Assembly: GCA_025677835.1 (NCBI GenBank)
Contig: JAIXMR010000056.1
Span: 62,001-126,000, forward strand
DNA from: Sporodiniella umbellata
Taxonomy: Eukaryota > Mucoromycota > Mucoromycetes > Mucorales > Rhizopodaceae
Direction: 5' to 3'
DNA: 64,000 nucleotides
Below are positions 7,617-47,637 of the stretch, piece after piece. The notes under the pieces are model-generated. The model had not been told where the DNA came from. It did no database searches and worked only from the letters and a program-made list of their open reading frames with translations. A program made the translations under genes and the position numbers. Each line of letters opens with the position of its first letter. Position 1 is the first letter of the stretch.

Positions 7617-8673
7617 TTATAAAGAGGTAGCCGAATCTTGACCCCAAGAAATAGGCTTGGCAGCCAAAGGTTTGTTGATGAGCTGTGCCTTCTCTGCTGG
7701 AGTAAGCGAGCTACCATTTCTTCGGGTTGGGCGGCCTGTACGATGCACGCGCAGATGGCGCCTCATGTTACTCTGTACACTAAATTTACGATGGCAGTCT
7801 TTTTCAGGACACTCGAACGGACGTTCGCCGGTATGGGAGTAAGTATGTATACGAAGGGAGGAAGGGCGAGAGAAGCCCTTGGAGCAGTAAGAGCAATAAT
7901 ATTTTTTACTGGGAGGCAGTCGTCGCTTCCGACCAGTGTGAAGGTGGCCGGACGGCTCGTTAGATCGGCCATTTTTTTTAGGCTTGTGCGATTCAGAATA
8001 GATAGACCCTCCACTACTACTGTTATCATCTTCTTCTTCGTCATGTTCCGCATCTTGTTCTTCGGCATCTGCCGAGTCCTCTTCAGAGGGCAAGGTGGGG
8101 CTCAGAGGATGGGAAAGAGTGACGACGGAGGATTGAGATGAGGTAGGAGAGCAGGTGCCATAGACAAGAGGGGGGGTGGCGTTGTTGGAGAGGTGCGATA
8201 AAGGCTGGAGCAAGAAATCAAAGGTGTTGGTGGATACAGCGCGACGGTGATAAGCCTGGGCCTTTGCAGGAGCTGTGGATGGGGGATAAGGATGGGTATA
8301 ATCCGAGTAAGAGCGTGTGTGCAGATGACGGGGAGAGCGATAAGAAGAAAGATGGGGACGGAAGGGTAAAGGGCGGTATAAGGAAGCCTGATTCTGTGGC
8401 TCGTCTACTTTGGGCTCGATGGGGATGGGCTGAATTGAAAGTCTTTCCAGCTGTCCAGACATGCTGGTCTCAATGGCTGCCTTTCGATCTACAAAAGGCT
8501 TGAAAGCACTCGAATGTTCTGATGCATGACGTCTGTGTCCTTTAGGTTTGGCTACAAACAAACTGTTTAATTCGGCGATTTTTTCTAATAAAAGAAACCT
8601 CACCTTCGTTCAAAGATACTCCCTCAAGCATGGACTGAATAGAGGGAAGCTTGGGCCATTCTTGTGATTGCAT
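7617..8673 (-). CDS. C2H2 zinc-finger transcription factor
   Basis: Hand-spliced from exons 8673-8604 and 8551-7617 (intron 8603-8552, GTGAGG...GTAG), 334 aa. The start MQSQEWPKLPSIQSML is chosen because the upstream Met at 8763 would add a poly-Phe stretch read from a poly-A tract. The N-terminal two thirds are disordered, Pro/Ser/His-rich, with an acidic block (SADAEEQDAEHDEEEDD) near residue 190. Near residues 240-295 are two tandem C2H2 fingers, YYCSYCSKGFSRPSSLRIH and FECPEKDCHRKFSVQSNMRRH, joined by the canonical HTGERPF linker. Two linked fingers of this form bind DNA in fungal regulators, so a nuclear role is expected. The coding part is clearly GC-richer than its flanks. The target genes cannot be told from sequence. 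Confidence 0.85.
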
Positions 8674-9496
8674 GTTGTGTTGGGCGTGTTTATGTAAGGA
8701 ACGGAGATATGGCGTAGCAAGAAAGAAAAATTCACAAAAAAAAAAAAAAGGAAGAAAGAGCAATAAATGAAAATGAAATACTATTTACAAGAAAAAAAAA
8801 AGCAGAAAATTAGGGTTGATCCCCTTTTTATCTTCTATATTTAACTCGTTTCAACCACCGAAAGTGTAAACCATACCTTATTTGTAGCGAAGTCAGGCTT
8901 GCAAATTTTGTCGGTCTGCCAAAAAGAATATTATTGGAAATAGCAGCAAAAACCATCGATAAATGCTAAACGCTGTTTGTATCCTACATTTGACGTCACT
9001 CTGACCTCTTCCAGGCAGGGTAAAAGGATCTATTGGTCACGTGAGCTGATCAAGACCACTCTCCCTCCCCCTCGGATGAGCCCATCAAAGATGAGACGAT
9101 TCTGCTGGACTGCGATCGCCATCATTTTTTCTTACGCCTTCAAAGAAATCTAAATCATGACATAGGGCGTTTGAGCTCGTTCTTGAGCTTAAAAATCTTC
9201 TTTGTCAATAAAAAAACTGCTCTTAAATTCCCTTTTGTTTGCATGAAAATGGGCCTCCGCCTTGTGTTTTCGGCTCACATCCTCAGCTATTTTTGAGGTG
9301 TACTGTTAGGTGATACAGCTGGGAATGCCACTGCAAGCCCAGGTAAAGAGAAGTAGACAAAAGAACAAAAGACTTGCTCAGTACCGTTTATTTTTCTCTC
9401 TGAAAGTCTGGACACCATCAAGAGCACTGTGTTTTGAAGTGTTACTCAATTCAAAACTAAAACCGCTGACACTAGAACGTTTCTTTATCCCAAAAA
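8674..9496. other. Promoter side of the zinc-finger gene
   Basis: About 820 bp upstream of the minus-strand zinc-finger gene, up to the inverted-repeat element. It includes a TGACGTCA-like CRE word near 8991-8997 (TTTGACGTCACTC) and a CACGTGA E-box near 9038. These are words only; no function is shown. Confidence 0.35.
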
Positions 9497-9581
9497 AAAA
9501 AAAAGAACACATTTGCTTCTTTGACCTTCGCTTTGAGATAGAACGACAGGCGATTCTTAATGTATTAAAGCACCCCTCCCC

Positions 9582-9621
<40 letters not shown>

Positions 9622-10629
9622 TTTTCTGGGTATATGATCTAGAGTGGTCAGATTATTTTCATGAAAAGATGCATAGACGTTTTAGCAGTTTCAAAACTTA
9701 GTAGAAAGGTCAAGATAAATTAAGATTGACGGTTTGGAAGAGAAAATAAGTTCAATGTTTAACAATGACAATGAGAGAATGAAAAGAGCTTCAGCAAATT
9801 TCATTTCATGTATTGTTTGCATAAGGCTACTTTTTCTATGTGCTCGTTAAGAGCTGCTAATCTTTGCCTGTCATGTCTCACAAAGAGAAGATCATGAATC
9901 GGCTATTGAATGCCGCGTGGACAACTAAGCGAAAGACTTAGTCTGTCGGCACATAGGTTGCGCTTTGCCAGCACATTTACCAAAACCAAAGCCAAAAAAG
10001 CTAAATTGCTCCTGTAATGTGTCTGTCACGCTTTCTCGTTGTTTTCTTGACTCAAAACGAAGCAGGTTAAAAGTAATGGCTGTTTCGTTAAATTCAAGGT
10101 ATATGGGCGGGGTTGGTTCTGGGAATGAAATCAGGACCGAGGCAAGAGCCCAGATTAAACGTGTCTGGAACCTTTTGCACATGTGGGTTATTGAAAAATG
10201 ACGATCCAATATACTAGCAAGTAGATTGCTTCGTAGGATAGTAAAGATCTCCTTTTCTCTCAAGACCTTTTTTGCGCTATTTTTGGTTTTCTAGAGTTCA
10301 AGTCAAGTCGCATTTCAAAATATGCTTTTCTTTTTTTTTTTTTTTTTTTTTTTGTTTCATTTTTCTTCAATTTGTTCTGTTTTGCAGAAAAAAAGGTAGT
10401 CCATTCAGAAACCTGTGGGAAACAGAACCAGCCCGCGGATTTCTGCGGTAATTTAAAGTAGGACGGGTCTACAGATTTTAGTCTAAAATTAGACAATTTC
10501 TAAATGGACAGTCTTTCATTTCAGTCTACTTTTTCTTCACATGTTCAAAAATCAGATCAGACACTTTCGAACCAGACACTTGAAGAGATTTTTTACCCAG
10601 AATCAATTACTTTATGAAGGGCAGTTTAT
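9497..10629 (+). repeat. Left arm of inverted repeat
   Basis: Starts in a poly-A run followed by GAACACATTTGC and ends at GCAGTTTAT. It includes a (TA)17 run and a T23 run. It matches the right arm in reverse complement wherever I compared, including both microsatellite lengths and total length (1,133 bp). It carries open frames of 78 and 112 codons that recur identically in the other arm; they look like no family I know. Confidence 0.92.
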
Positions 10630-10679
10630 TACTTTACTCTTATTCAAGGTTCATTCCTTTGTTCATGCATCTATACCAA

Positions 10680-11290
10680 CATGTTTTGGTGTGTCTGATA
10701 TAGTTCTTGACATGAGTCCCGAGTTCACGTCTAAAGGATTTCGTTTGATATTACTTTTAGCATTCTCCAATTGTATTCAATAATGGAGAGAGTATGGATG
10801 CATTAAAAGAGGCTTATAGCCTTGTTTGTTGATAGCATTTACGACAAACGCTGAATGATGAACTCTACAGTTGTCAATAACGATAAACATTCCCTTTCTG
10901 CTATGTTTATCAAGAGCATTCATGAAAGTTTCGATGAATTTTACAACATGGTATGTGATTACGCCTTTTTAAGAGGTTTTGACTTGGAAGTTTCCAAAAT
11001 GTCAGCCTTTCCCTTCTTAGTTGTAGCTTTCTTAAATTCCTTCTCGAGCTTCTCCATATCTGACCGCCCCAATGGCTCAAAAAGAGAAACACAGCCGACA
11101 ATTGTAACATTTGCTCTACATCTGCTATGAACCTGTATAATAGCAGGATCACCTTTTTTTTTTTTTGACCATGTACGACCTCTCATCATTTGAGTATGAA
11201 GCCCCACCCATCATAGTTCTTTTGAAAGTTAACACCACTTTCTTTCCATTAGAAACAAAAAGAACTTGTGCATTTTCCGCATATCAAAAC
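10680..11290 (-). pseudogene. Decayed Tc1/IS630-family DDE transposase
   Basis: Read on the minus strand, three blocks in changing frames line up in the order expected for the C-terminal half of an IS630/Tc1-type transposase. First is MRGRTWSKK then GDPA and ANVTIVGCVS (about 11190-11080). Next, one frame over, is FIETFMNALDKHSRKGMFIV followed by IDNCRVHHS, which holds the second catalytic Asp with its DNxxxH signature (10930-10850). Last is HPYS then, after further frame breaks, SNIKRNPLD (10800-10720). A stop after KPLKKA (10959), a frame shift at that point and at least one more lesion in the PYSPxxNPIE region show it is dead. The N-terminal DNA-binding part was not found. Confidence 0.75.
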
Positions 11291-12049
11291 AAATTCCCAC
11301 ATAGCAACGAGGGTTTAAAAGAGATGAGCCAGGCGATAAAAACAAAGCGATAGGCCAGTGATCACGAATAGTCCTGTGAATGTATGGTTTTCTTCTGACA
11401 CCATTCATACTACGGTCTTCTACAAAACATCAGTAAGTTACTTTATTGTGTTATTTTAGTTCTCGAAATATGCCAATGGCTTTAATTTTTCAGAGCAAAC
11501 TACTCTCTATTAGTATGCTATAATCTCCCACATCGCTTGATTCAAATATATAAGGTTCATGAAGAGAACCCAATGCAAAACATCATTATAATTTAGAGAA
11601 TATGATTGACAAAGTTAAAGCACGGTGAGAATTTCGACTACCATATGTTTACCTCTTTTGACTTTTTCTTCAGTTAAGAGACGCAGAAGCTTACAACTTC
11701 AAGAAAGAGATTAAGCGCTTTTTTTCATATTACTAGACTTATCTGACTAGAATGACTAAATTCAAGTTATAACCAAACATAATTATGCGATGGTTTATTA
11801 GCATATAGAGCTCTTGTATTATACGTAGGAGTTCAACCGTGTGACACTTTATTGTTCATTTTCTTTTAAATATGTTGTATCTAAAAAAAGGCTGCCGCAG
11901 AGGTCAAAGTAAAAGATTGAAAACTCGAAAAACATGGCTTTTTATAGTTTTCTTGTATTATGGCTACTGTGTATCTATGCATCCATAGAAATAACGCCTT
12001 GTTGGTGCATTTTTGCCGTTTTATTTAGATAATCTTTTGAGGCAATTTT

Positions 12050-12413
12050 TTTTTTTCAAATTGCTTTTCAAAAGACAATTAGACAATGTTTTACGGACCG
12101 AAAGCTCTCTGTGACATTAACAGGAATTATTCCTATCAATACTGCTGAAAACGTTGAGACGCGGCTCCGTAGTCTTAATCTGGATGAACTTTTTGAACAT
12201 TATAAGCCCTTTAAAGATAAGCAGTAAGTATTTAAAATCATAGAATCTCAAAGTGTTTGTCTCAATGGTCTCACCTTATACTGTTTTAGATATGGGCTTT
12301 CGCATTTTGCCACGAGATATGACACTTCCAAGTTTTTTCAGAAATACAGGAACAAAAAGCTTGATAAAGGAAAAAATGTGAGAGTAATGGTGAAATGGTT
12401 TAAGTTTTAAGAT
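12050..12413 (+). pseudogene. Spliced gene fragment inside the repeat element
   Basis: A plus-strand frame reading QCFTDRKLSVTLTGIIPIN and on to YKPFKDK ends at a GTAAGT donor (12224). It resumes in the same frame after a TTTTAG acceptor (about 12289) as QYGLSHFATRYDTSKFFQKY, ending MVKWFKF and a TAA near 12411. The donor, acceptor and preserved phase (CA|A) argue for a former gene rather than chance. No start codon was found and the family is not recognised. It may be a cargo or second transposon gene. Confidence 0.4.
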
Positions 12414-12979
12414 GGCAAGAATGATGAGAAGTTAAACGAGACTCTGAAAGTTAGATGGTGTTTTTTTTTCGTGGTCATTGGGAACCTTTTATATGTTTTT
12501 AAGACCGAATCATGAAGCTGACTTAGAGTGCGATGAGTTGTTACAGTCATCAATAAAGTGCACATCAGCACGTGGTGAACGCTCTAAATTGAAATAGCGT
12601 TAGCGGTGCTAGACTATCATATTTAACAGCTGTTACTATGATTGCTTCTTTGGCATTAAGTTAAGTGTTGGTAAAGACTAAACACGACAAGTGGGTTCTA
12701 TTGATTGGAACAAAAACTCAGTTTCTTGTAGTATCGGTTCAAACCCACTTGAAACAAACTTATTAGAGGCAAATATTGACAACCTCTATAGCAATATTCA
12801 TGGGTACAAGGTAGCTATACACCTGTTAAAAGCAGAGATTCGTTCCAAGGAAGGCAAAATTAAACAGCGTAAAATAAACCTTTAAAGATGTAACTTTATA
12901 TCTTCAATACCCTCACCACTCACATGCTTAAGCATTTAATTACACATAATAAACAGTCTACGATATCGTTTAATGTATG

Positions 12980-13987
12980 ATAAACTGCCCTTCATAAAGT
13001 AATTGATTCTGGGTAAAAAATCTCTTCAAGTGTCTGGTTCGAAAGTGTCTGATCTGATTTTTGAACATGTGAAGAAAAAGTAGACTGAAATGAAAGACTG
13101 TCCATTTAGAAATTGTCTAATTTTAGACTAAAATCTGTAGACCCGTCCTACTTTAAATTACCGCAGAAATCCGCGGGCTGGTTCTGTTTCCCACAGGTTT
13201 CTGAATGGACTACCTTTTTTTCTGCAAAACAGAACAAATTGAAGAAAAATGAAACAAAAAAAAAAAAAAAAAAAAAAAGAAAAGCATATTTTGAAATGCG
13301 ACTTGACTTGAACTCTAGAAAACCAAAAATAGCGCAAAAAAGGTCTTGAGAGAAAAGGAGATCTTTACTATCCTACGAAGCAATCTACTTGCTAGTATAT
13401 TGGATCGTCATTTTTCAATAACCCACATGTGCAAAAGGTTCCAGACACGTTTAATCTGGGCTCTTGCCTCGGTCCTGATTTCATTCCCAGAACCAACCCC
13501 GCCCATATACCTTGAATTTAACGAAACAGCCATTACTTTTAACCTGCTTCGTTTTGAGTCAAGAAAACAACGAGAAAGCGTGACAGACACATTACAGGAG
13601 CAATTTAGCTTTTTTGGCTTTGGTTTTGGTAAATGTGCTGGCAAAGCGCAACCTATGTGCCGACAGACTAAGTCTTTCGCTTAGTTGTCCACGCGGCATT
13701 CAATAGCCGATTCATGATCTTCTCTTTGTGAGACATGACAGGCAAAGATTAGCAGCTCTTAACGAGCACATAGAAAAAGTAGCCTTATGCAAACAATACA
13801 TGAAATGAAATTTGCTGAAGCTCTTTTCATTCTCTCATTGTCATTGTTAAACATTGAACTTATTTTCTCTTCCAAACCGTCAATCTTAATTTATCTTGAC
13901 CTTTCTACTAAGTTTTGAAACTGCTAAAACGTCTATGCATCTTTTCATGAAAATAATCTGACCACTCTAGATCATATACCCAGAAAA

Positions 13988-14027
<40 letters not shown>

Positions 14028-14112
14028 GGGGAGGGGTGCTTTAATACATTAAGAATCGCCTGTCGTTCTATCTCAAAGCGAAGGTCAAAGAAGCAAATGT
14101 GTTCTTTTTTTT
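12980..14112 (-). repeat. Right arm of inverted repeat
   Basis: Reverse-complement copy of 9497-10629, including the A23 tract (13256-13278) and the (TA)17 tract (13991-14024). The arm ends in TTTTTTTT at 14105-14112, directly before the small secreted protein gene's 3' flank. Confidence 0.92.
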
Positions 14113-14277
14113 CCAGAAAATTTACATTCAAAAGAAAAGAGAAGGTCGAAAGAAACAATAACAGGGCAACAAAAATATCTCATATTTTGGGTGGTACCTG
14201 GATGTGTAGTACAAAGGGTAATCTTTTTATTGGCACTCGTACAAGAAAAAGGGGTAAGGACAAAAAAAGAAAAAGAT

Positions 14278-14529
14278 CTACGAAGAATAGGTTCTTTTAG
14301 AACCGTTTTTCTTTTGGGAACCACATGGTCTACAAGGGATGGTGCAATGAATTCCCAATTTTGGGTTAGGTTGACACGGGAGACAACAGATACAGTTGCC
14401 AGTCTCTTGTTCCTTTTGGCACTGCCATTTATCTAAACATGCGTTCTTTTTGGAGCAAGATGGATGTGCTTCTAAACTTGAGCAGTAGGCCGTGGCAACG
14501 AAACAGAGAAGGATTAAAGAGACGCGCAT
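14278..14529 (-). CDS. Small secreted cysteine-rich protein
   Basis: 83-aa protein with an N-terminal signal peptide (MRVSLILLCFVATAYCSS, cleavage likely near residue 17-19). The mature region of about 65 residues contains ten cysteines, including CICCLPC and IPCRPC, an even number consistent with five disulphides. It ends in a basic, lysine/arginine-rich tail. Size, secretion signal and Cys density fit a small secreted protein of the effector, antimicrobial or wall-associated type, but I recognise no family. TATA-like words lie upstream on the minus strand near 14561 and 14625. It sits 166 bp from the inverted-repeat element, a common setting for fast-evolving secreted proteins. A single-exon model is assumed. 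Confidence 0.65.
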   Translation of the reverse strand: MRVSLILLCFVATAYCSSLEAHPSCSKKNACLDKWQCQKEQETGNCICCLPCQPNPKLGIHCTIPCRPCGSQKKNGSKRTYSS

Positions 14530-19564
<5,035 letters not shown>

Positions 19565-45294: not shown

Positions 45295-47637
45295 ATGGAG
45301 GATCTTCAATCTTTGGTCAATACAGCATCTCAACATGTCAGTAATGGGCAAATAAAAGTAACATCATATTTTTTAAAGACATGCTCTATCCTCACACTTT
45401 GCGTAATAGGATGCATACTATTTGTTTCTAACAACAGCTCAAGATGCTATTAAACCTTTGTTTGACGTGAAATTCATACACAGTTGTAAGTTTAAAGAAA
45501 CTTTAGCAACCTCCCTCTCCTTCTTTTATAACATCCTTTAATAAAATAATACAAAAAGCCATAGTTTCTAAGCAGCAAAACTATGACATGATACTATGCA
45601 TCTTGCGTACTTGCGTTGACGAAATTGAAAGGATTTCAGAATACCACTCCACTTCAGCTCGTAAGGCTCCTCCTCCTCCTTTGCCACCTAAACCCACTTC
45701 TGCGACCAAGCCGGTCTTGCCGCCCAAACCCAGTCGACCTTTACCCATAGTTCCTGGCTCTAGCTATGGCTCCGGTAAATAAGAAAGTATACATACGCTT
45801 CTTTAAAAAAGCAAAGACAAAGCCTGATATCGTTTATAAGACTAAACACGTACTACTCTTATAGAAGCGATAGAACTACCTAGTGTACCGAACGGAGAGA
45901 TAGACCCTTACAGCTTAGTTCCAGCGCAAATAAACAGTAATGATACACTAACTCCTTCTACCAATACCAAAAACATACCTTATATACCAATACCTCCTCT
46001 CATTGTTACCCACAAGAGGCTGCAAGCAAAACTCGATGAACTTGAGTTTTCTCTAAATGAGCACCGTGCACGAAAGCGTTTACTACTGCAAGGAGAAGAT
46101 AATAGTAGCCGAGCAAACCAAAGCGAGCTAGACGACACCATCTCAAAATATACCCCATATGTTGCTGAAGCCAAGCAGACACTGAATAGAATTCGAACAG
46201 TACACATGACTGCCGCCACCATTCCTTCCATTGTTCATTTTCAACCAGGCGAAGTTGCTTACCAGATCACTCGCATCGAATCTGCCATTTTCTTTGCCAT
46301 TCCAACACAGGCTTTACTCACTCATTCACCAAAAAGCCCTCATCCGCGTATTGTAGCCTCTACTGATTTTTTCAACTTCATAACAAGGATGATTGAGCAC
46401 TCAATCTTATTGCCTCAAGAGGCATCTGTGAGAGCCCAACATATTCATCACTGGATCAAGGTTGTTACAAAGTGTCAAGACTTGAACAACTACCAAACGC
46501 TCAAAGCCATTACTTCTGCCCTAGGAACACCTCCTGTACAGCGCTTAAAAAGAAGTTGGAGCTACGTTCCTAAAAGAAGCCAATCCAAGTTAGATGCCAT
46601 TAATGAACTGATGTCTGAATCCCATAACTATGTGAAATACAGAGAGTATATAGAGTGCGCTCTTAATGGGAAAAATTCCCAGAAAAGCTCAACGGAACAG
46701 AGCAAAAAACCAATCATTCCTTTTCTGGGCACTTTTATACACGATATGACTTATCTTTTGGCTGCTGTTCAGCATCAAGAACAGACATCCCCCAGTCATG
46801 CAAGACCAAGGCCAACTACTTTCTTAAAGTCCACTGTCGACATTTTGCAAAGTGACAGTCGTGTCCAAAAGCTTTTGAGCACCTTCGAATCCTTTAAATC
46901 GTTCCCGCCTTACAACAAACGACCAGGAACTTCTTACACAAAAAACGCTCAGCGACCAGGAAGTCCTGTTCGGCCTGCCTTTTCGCAAGCACTTCAGCGT
47001 AGCAAATCTAGCTTTGGTCGGCTAGGCGGTGCTATAGGACTTGGTAGTAACTATATGGAAAACTCAAGTGATAATAGTCTATCAAACGATAACAATGGGG
47101 ACTTTGACGTTGAAGAACAGTCCAACCTAGTAATTCAATACATCCTTATGCGTCCCTGGGTAAGTCAGGACACAGTAGACGAGTTGAGTGTATTACGAGA
47201 GCCTCCGCGGGCCATTTCAAAACCTGGAAATTCAAGAAGCAATAGTGTTGGAAGTCACTATACAGGCTCATTGATTAGCAATACAAGCTCTCTCATGAGG
47301 CTCAGCACTAGCTGTAATAGCACAGCTACAATTGGTTCGTCCAGTACATTTGATAGTCGCCCAGATAGCTTTGACGACATACATAGGCTACATGGGAAAG
47401 AAACAGATTCAAACAATTTACCCTCCCCTTTAGCAGAAAGTACTTTCCACTATGATAGCTCTCTTCTTCTCCATCAACTAACATCAGATGAAAAGTGGAA
47501 CCGCAATATTTCTATTTACGATAAAGGTACTAGAGAGAAACAAAAAAAGAATACAGAGCAATACTAACATTGTTATAGCACCCATTGTGCCACCTAGACC
47601 TAAAGGGTTATCTCACAAAATAGAAAAAAGTATTTAA
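45295..47637 (+). CDS. RasGEF (CDC25-domain) guanine nucleotide exchange factor
   Basis: Predicted activator of a Ras-family GTPase. Five exons (45295-45340, 45438-45485, 45565-45774, 45865-47526, 47579-47637) give 674 aa. Residues about 55-85 are a proline-rich ligand for SH3 domains (KAPPPPLPPKP, then LPPKPSRPLPIVP), and the C-terminus has another (APIVPPRPKG). The catalytic domain runs from about residue 205 to 380: ITRIESAIFFAIPTQALLTH, RAQHIHHWIKVVTKCQDLNN, YQTLKAITSALGTPPVQRLK, SHNYVKYREYIE and IPFLGTFIHDMTYLLAA, the usual RasGEF order with the LNNY/Q and PFLG motifs. No REM domain is obvious, though the helical region EEFSLNEHRARKR-like at about 165-200 may stand in. The tail is Ser-rich. 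Exons 1-3 rest on consensus splice sites and phase. Convergent with the wall-protein gene. Confidence 0.85.

Follow-up and report, generated by a model that had tools for sequence, protein, structure and literature searches.

A spaced pair of identical inverted arms around decayed transposon remains in Sporodiniella umbellata, and inverted pairs of similar form elsewhere in its genome

Two inverted arms that are exact reverse complements of each other enclose old transposon remains within the 64-kb window, that is, the whole stretch of Sporodiniella umbellata (Mucorales, Rhizopodaceae) DNA analysed here. We consider this arrangement best explained, with a probability of about one half, as the duplication, in inverted orientation and across a spacer, of a single-copy and apparently non-coding sequence, with arms kept identical by gene conversion from arm to arm. 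The points that count for this explanation are the exactness of the arms, their sharp edges, the lack of any full arm copy other than the partner in the genome search, and the old centre. That conversion acts at this locus we infer by analogy with a family of palindromic Tc1-like elements in the same genome, and a plain young duplication, which predicts the same sequence at the window locus, remains the main rival. The wider class of inverted pairs that resemble the window pair in form is more interesting than the window pair itself.

Table 1. Features of the window and inverted pairs at DDE_3 loci elsewhere in the genome (arm lengths and identities in the last column)
Feature	Location	Strand	Description
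Left arm	window 9497..10629	+	1,133 bp; sole full match is the partner arm; outer edge within an A run
Right arm	window 12980..14112	-	exact reverse complement of left arm
T23 tract	window 10331..10353	+	left arm; A23 counterpart at 13256-13278 in right arm
35-base TA tract	window 9585..9619	+	left arm; counterpart at 13990-14024 in right arm
Spacer	window 10630..12979		2,350 bp; found once in full in the genome; old, decayed
DDE_3 (Tc1-like) transposase remnant	window about 10750..11195	-	decayed; in spacer, outside arms
LTR-like repeat, old copy	window 12391..12689	+	dispersed repeat of ~270-300 bp, TG...CA
RasGEF protein (100% identity to an S. umbellata protein, 97% length coverage)	window 46206-47567		
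C120 pair (L033/L034)	C120:101303-104817		1,682-bp arms, no difference, spacer 151 bp
C14 pair			2,087 bp, 2 mismatches
C125a pair			2.8 kb, 97.6%
C125b pair			2.6 kb, 97.0%
C122 pair			1,157 bp, one gap
C2 pair			1,430 bp, 99.5%
C171 pair			873 bp, one mismatch
C185 pair (L054-L058)	C185:92431-103600		at least 3,602 bp, one gap, 99.97%
C112 pair			1,606 bp, 99.2%
C114 pair			1,306 bp, 99.7%
C117 pair			1,523 bp, 99.7%
C132 pair			1,166 bp, 99.7%
C160 pair			at least 2,390 bp, 99.8%
C188 pair			475 bp, 98.7%

Arms of the window pair

The initial annotation had described the arms as identical inverted copies of one another, down to their T23 and TA tracts, and a base-by-base alignment bears this out, with all 1,133 of 1,133 bases matched as reverse complements and both tracts included. 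The absence of any difference sets a 95% upper bound of 0.26% on arm divergence, and a chance origin of a match of this length is out of the question. The identity of the tracts, which the initial annotation had pointed out as sequences that normally mutate fastest, nevertheless carries little weight as evidence, because identical tracts would also result from a consensus called on arms that cannot be told apart. On the spacer side the homology ends immediately, so that the inner edges are sharp; the outer edges lie in runs of A (13 on the left, 8 on the right), and the outer limit of the arms is for this reason uncertain by a few bases. Gapped comparison beyond the edges over 100, 200, 400 and 800 bp, with 60 shuffles each, gave no homology signal inward of the arms and, outward of them, a single weak score of 27, which was absent at 100 and 200 bp and was equalled by 0 of 60 shuffles at 400 bp and by 5 of 60 at 800 bp; convincing homology past the arm edges does not appear to exist. 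Likewise, a comparison of the flanks TTTATCCC and CCAGAAAA revealed no target-site duplication outside the arms, in agreement with the earlier observation. The pair is the only one found in a scan of the 64-kb window for inverted pairs of at least 60 bp (seed 14), a scan that can miss gapped or poorly alike pairs.

A search of the S. umbellata assembly (25.95 Mb in 198 contigs) for other copies returned 33 matches to the arm, namely the two arms in full and 31 short matches at the T or TA tract, a count to be read in the light of a procedure that scores the best candidates only and skips very common words; the sole full copy of the centre was the centre itself. As far as searched, then, the arm appears to be single-copy DNA. 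It is also apparently non-coding: none of its ten open frames (40-121 aa) has a Pfam match above the cut-off, and a scan of positions 8600-15000 against Rfam gave no structured RNA in the arms up to an E value of 1. Neither a paralogue nor a known transposon could be recognised, as comparisons at the nucleotide and translated levels with 228 kb of loci, with the window flanks and with the spacer yielded T-tract matches only. The possibility that the arms are the terminal inverted repeats (TIRs) of a fossil Tc1 element was also considered and rejected, since alignments of the presumed TIR zones with each other or with the TIRs of the C187 element did not clearly exceed those of shuffled sequence (the best score, 25, was attained in 5 of 100 shuffles). 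A small cysteine-rich, secreted-looking frame of 83 aa (window 14278-14529, minus strand) adjoins the right arm.

Content of the spacer

The initial annotation described the transposase of the centre as broken in at least three places; the breakage as such is confirmed, in that the remnant aligns with the C187 copy piecewise and in more than one frame. Its minus-strand frame 10780-10968 matches DDE_3 with a Pfam E value of 6e-5 and 23.3 bits, below the cut-off of 28.6, and its closest genomic relatives, searched with the best piece of 63 aa, are the C187 and C134 copies at 64-66% amino acid identity. The LTR-like repeat of the spacer has matches at ten other places (L010-L020). Among matches of at least 130 bp it is 64-76% identical to other copies, several of which are ~79-99% alike among themselves, and in the alignment AAGTC flanks the copy L029 as a direct repeat. 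On these sequence comparisons the spacer is old.

Inverted pairs elsewhere in the genome

A genome-wide DDE_3 search gave 101 matches, merged into 93 copies, the neighbours within 10 kb of each other forming 21 opposite-strand pairs against 5 same-strand pairs. Opposite-strand pairing covers 37 of the 93 merged copies, with a binomial P of 0.0012 that is rough because the pairs are not independent. Three control families were read by eye. Among 148 kinase matches (123 of 509 candidates scored) a single pair lay on opposite strands within 10 kb, its two scores very unequal (248.8 and 162.3); among 17 reverse transcriptase matches there was also one, with scores of 124 and 116.6 over different spans; and among 19 ABC matches (19 of 87 candidates scored) there was none. 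No duplicate-like inverted pair was thus seen among the scored candidates of the host-gene families (kinase and ABC), and so the inverted pairs look transposon-linked.

At DDE_3 loci we found 14 other inverted pairs (Table 1), with arms 97.0-100% alike, 12 of the 14 at 98.7% or above, and from 0.47 to at least 3.6 kb in length; for C160 and C185 the sequence examined stops before the outer edge on at least one side, and their arm lengths are lower bounds. Thirteen derive from the 21 opposite-strand pairs and the C132 pair from a DNA search. The first were chosen by like scores and the later ones by closeness together with like scores, such that diverged pairs are under-represented. The eight of the 21 left out are C136, C187, two on C173, two more on C160, the pairing of C120 with a copy at 112610 and that of C2 with a copy at 363740. 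The motif TACAGT stands at the outer edges on both sides in C120, C125a, C125b and C171 and on one side in C14, and is lacking in C122, C2, C112, C114, C117, C132 and C188, the left edge of C114 lying ~13 bases inside an apparent TACAGT-type end. Several of the pairs thus have sharp edges with no transposon end visible. The C120 palindrome, with TACAGT ends on both sides, holds an open DDE_3 frame of 401 aa at each arm, and on C187 the element spanning 15.3-16.3 kb carries TIRs of 210 bp (98.6%) and 48 bp (97.9%). The arms on C125 contain a tandem-repeat array.

In C122, C171 and C112 the transposase matches contain stop codons, equal in number and kind in both arms, although introns were not modelled and some of the stops could be intronic. 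The arms of these pairs agree, therefore, though their content is probably decayed, a situation that resembles the paradox of pristine arms and broken core raised in the initial annotation.

Differences between arms were pooled over 12 pairs, the window pair included and C125a, C125b and C185 left out, with edges trimmed to ten matches, a procedure that drops edge mismatches in C171, C132, C160, C14, C112 and C188. The pool holds 12 substitutions in 16,763 bp, 6 in the outermost tenth of the half-arm and 6 spread further inward, and the clustering towards the edges (KS P 0.014, post hoc, 12 sites) was counted for conversion, because conversion is expected to fade at arm edges. The window arms, with no differences anywhere, contribute nothing to this sign. 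Ten of the 12 substitutions are G/A or C/T, for which deamination or a RIP-like process may be responsible.

Arm-to-arm copying in a palindromic Tc1-like family

C14, C125a and C125b (L040-L045) are the same palindromic Tc1-like element at three loci. Over 1,767 aligned columns their six arms have 36 gap-free variable sites, 31 of which (21 + 10) separate loci with both arms in agreement, while 5 do not; substitutions number 0, 3 and 2 within loci and 12 to 34 between loci, such that arms are more alike within than between loci, with the caveat that consensus calling could merge arms. Between the arms of C125a and C125b, the first 1,700 columns of a global alignment contain 0 and 1 substitution respectively, with 57 of 65 and 66 of 76 substitutions falling in the tandem-array zone of columns 1700-2450. 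The junction of arm and spacer is identical at C14 and C125a, the spacer of C125a standing in reverse orientation and the right end of C125b showing the spacer in C14 orientation, although an assembler not spanning the 2-kb arms might pick spacer orientation at random. A palindrome older than the split of these loci, combined with arms that agree locus by locus, argues for conversion between arms together with inversion; the arms seem to have overwritten each other and the spacer to have been flipped. The suggestion of gene conversion made for the window pair gains indirect support from this family.

Origin of the window pair

The sequence of events that we favour would begin with the copying of one arm in reverse orientation ~2.35 kb away, beside an older transposon graveyard, possibly by a template switch during replication or by break repair. 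Since the arms are close together and inverted, they could then pair with each other, crossovers inverting the spacer without deleting it and non-crossover events overwriting one arm with the other. Such conversion would preserve the identity of the arms as the centre, which has no partner to pair with, decays.

Spaced inverted repeats with ectopic gene conversion and inversion are a feature of sex-chromosome palindromes. In yeasts, crossover inversion and gene conversion between inverted repeats are established, according to PMC6895784, and the window pair shares with these repeats of yeasts and Candida the alike arms and unrelated spacer; it differs in an arm that is apparently non-coding and single-copy, and in that conversion is deduced from its relatives rather than demonstrated at its own locus. 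Duplications from error-prone repair, for example microhomology-mediated break-induced replication, are described in flies, one of them inverted, in PMC11226609. Writings on Sporodiniella, on inverted repeats of Mucorales and other fungi, on Tc1 and on template switching, taken mostly at the level of titles and abstract openings, contain no evident description of such a pair. Against the preferred explanation, the inverted pairs look transposon-linked, whereas the window arm lacks recognisable transposon sequence, and the pooled edge clustering is a post hoc result from 12 sites.

If the inverted duplication, an option named in the initial annotation, were so recent that its arms had no time to diverge, gene conversion would not be needed at all, and we regard this as a rather unlikely but serious reading. 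The zero differences, with their upper bound, and the sharp edges accord with it; arms without differences carry no footprint of conversion, hence youth fits the window locus equally well. Further points in its favour come from a repeat scan of 183 kb, made up of the window and twelve stretches of 10 kb, of which two lie next to the window and ten were selected for the LTR-like repeat, and run at thresholds of at least 85% identity and 40 bp with low complexity left out. Its three dispersed inverted pairs, the window pair and two shorter ones (183 bp, 98.4%; 90 bp, 97.8%), are all at least 97.8% alike, and no dispersed direct pair was found, direct repeats being head-to-tail or closely spaced arrays. 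(Related tandem arrays occur on two contigs, at L023 8207-9498 and L027 3534-4380.) Against youth stands the near identity of the 14 other pairs, some with probably broken transposases, as a steady supply of duplications should also yield kb-long pairs of intermediate divergence. This objection is tempered by the way in which most of the 14 were found, as selection by proximity and likeness of score favours arms that resemble each other, and by the occurrence of shorter, more diverged inverted repeats (129 bp at 96.1%, L036; 110 bp at 80.9%, L025). The C14/C125 palindrome, however, predates the identity of its arms.

An artefact of assembly or consensus, whether a consensus that merges diverged arms or a join or duplication made in error, seems to us improbable. 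Short reads cannot distinguish identical arms, and in the 12 trimmed pairs 17 of 29 differing columns are gaps, all within single-base runs, as is typical of consensus error or slippage; template switching in amplification, moreover, can give artificial structural variants, as PMC11226609 mentions. The window pair nevertheless has two distinct flanks and a unique spacer, unlike the simple mirror of an adapter chimera, and the one palindrome present at C14, C125a and C125b carries changes specific to each locus. Likewise, inverted pairs concentrate at the loci of one transposon superfamily, DDE_3, and not at kinases, and a random join becomes less likely for that reason.

Foldback and long-TIR DNA transposons have long inverted terminal arms flanking a centre, a shape also seen in the window pair, and palindromic Tc1 elements are present in this genome; but a non-autonomous element of this kind moved in trans, as the initial annotation had offered, is very improbable, given that no second full arm copy or solo arm was found, that there is no target-site duplication, that the ends are A runs instead of TACAGT and that the arm matches the compared transposon loci at its T tract only. 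The palindromic Tc1-like elements (C120, C14, C125a, C125b and C171) likewise have near-identical inverted arms, of 0.9-2.8 kb, around a spacer. Each of their arms carries DDE_3, and their ends show TACAGT, in C14 on a single side; the window arm has neither, the DDE_3 remnant of the window pair lying in the spacer.

Wider context

Returning to duplication followed by conversion, the window pair suggests that pristine arms around a decayed centre need not indicate a recent jump, as copying from arm to arm can maintain identity within mirror pairs for longer than the DNA around them stays intact. We put forward, tentatively and with more doubt than confidence, that local inverted copies arise in S. 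umbellata through a genome-wide process of unusual activity, mostly around Tc1-like elements and also from ordinary DNA, as in the window, and that conversion then keeps their arms identical while their spacers are flipped. If this were true, much of the Tc1 landscape of S. umbellata would consist of self-homogenising mirror pairs. Should the genome-wide pattern hold in sequencing reads and in another strain, the small genome of this fungus would offer a natural system in which to study the rates of conversion and flipping of inverted repeats, and whether conversion shelters transposase genes from decay. Elsewhere in the window, a TPP riboswitch (Rfam RF00059, 19658-19764) lies downstream of a Thi4 frame (18547-19356).
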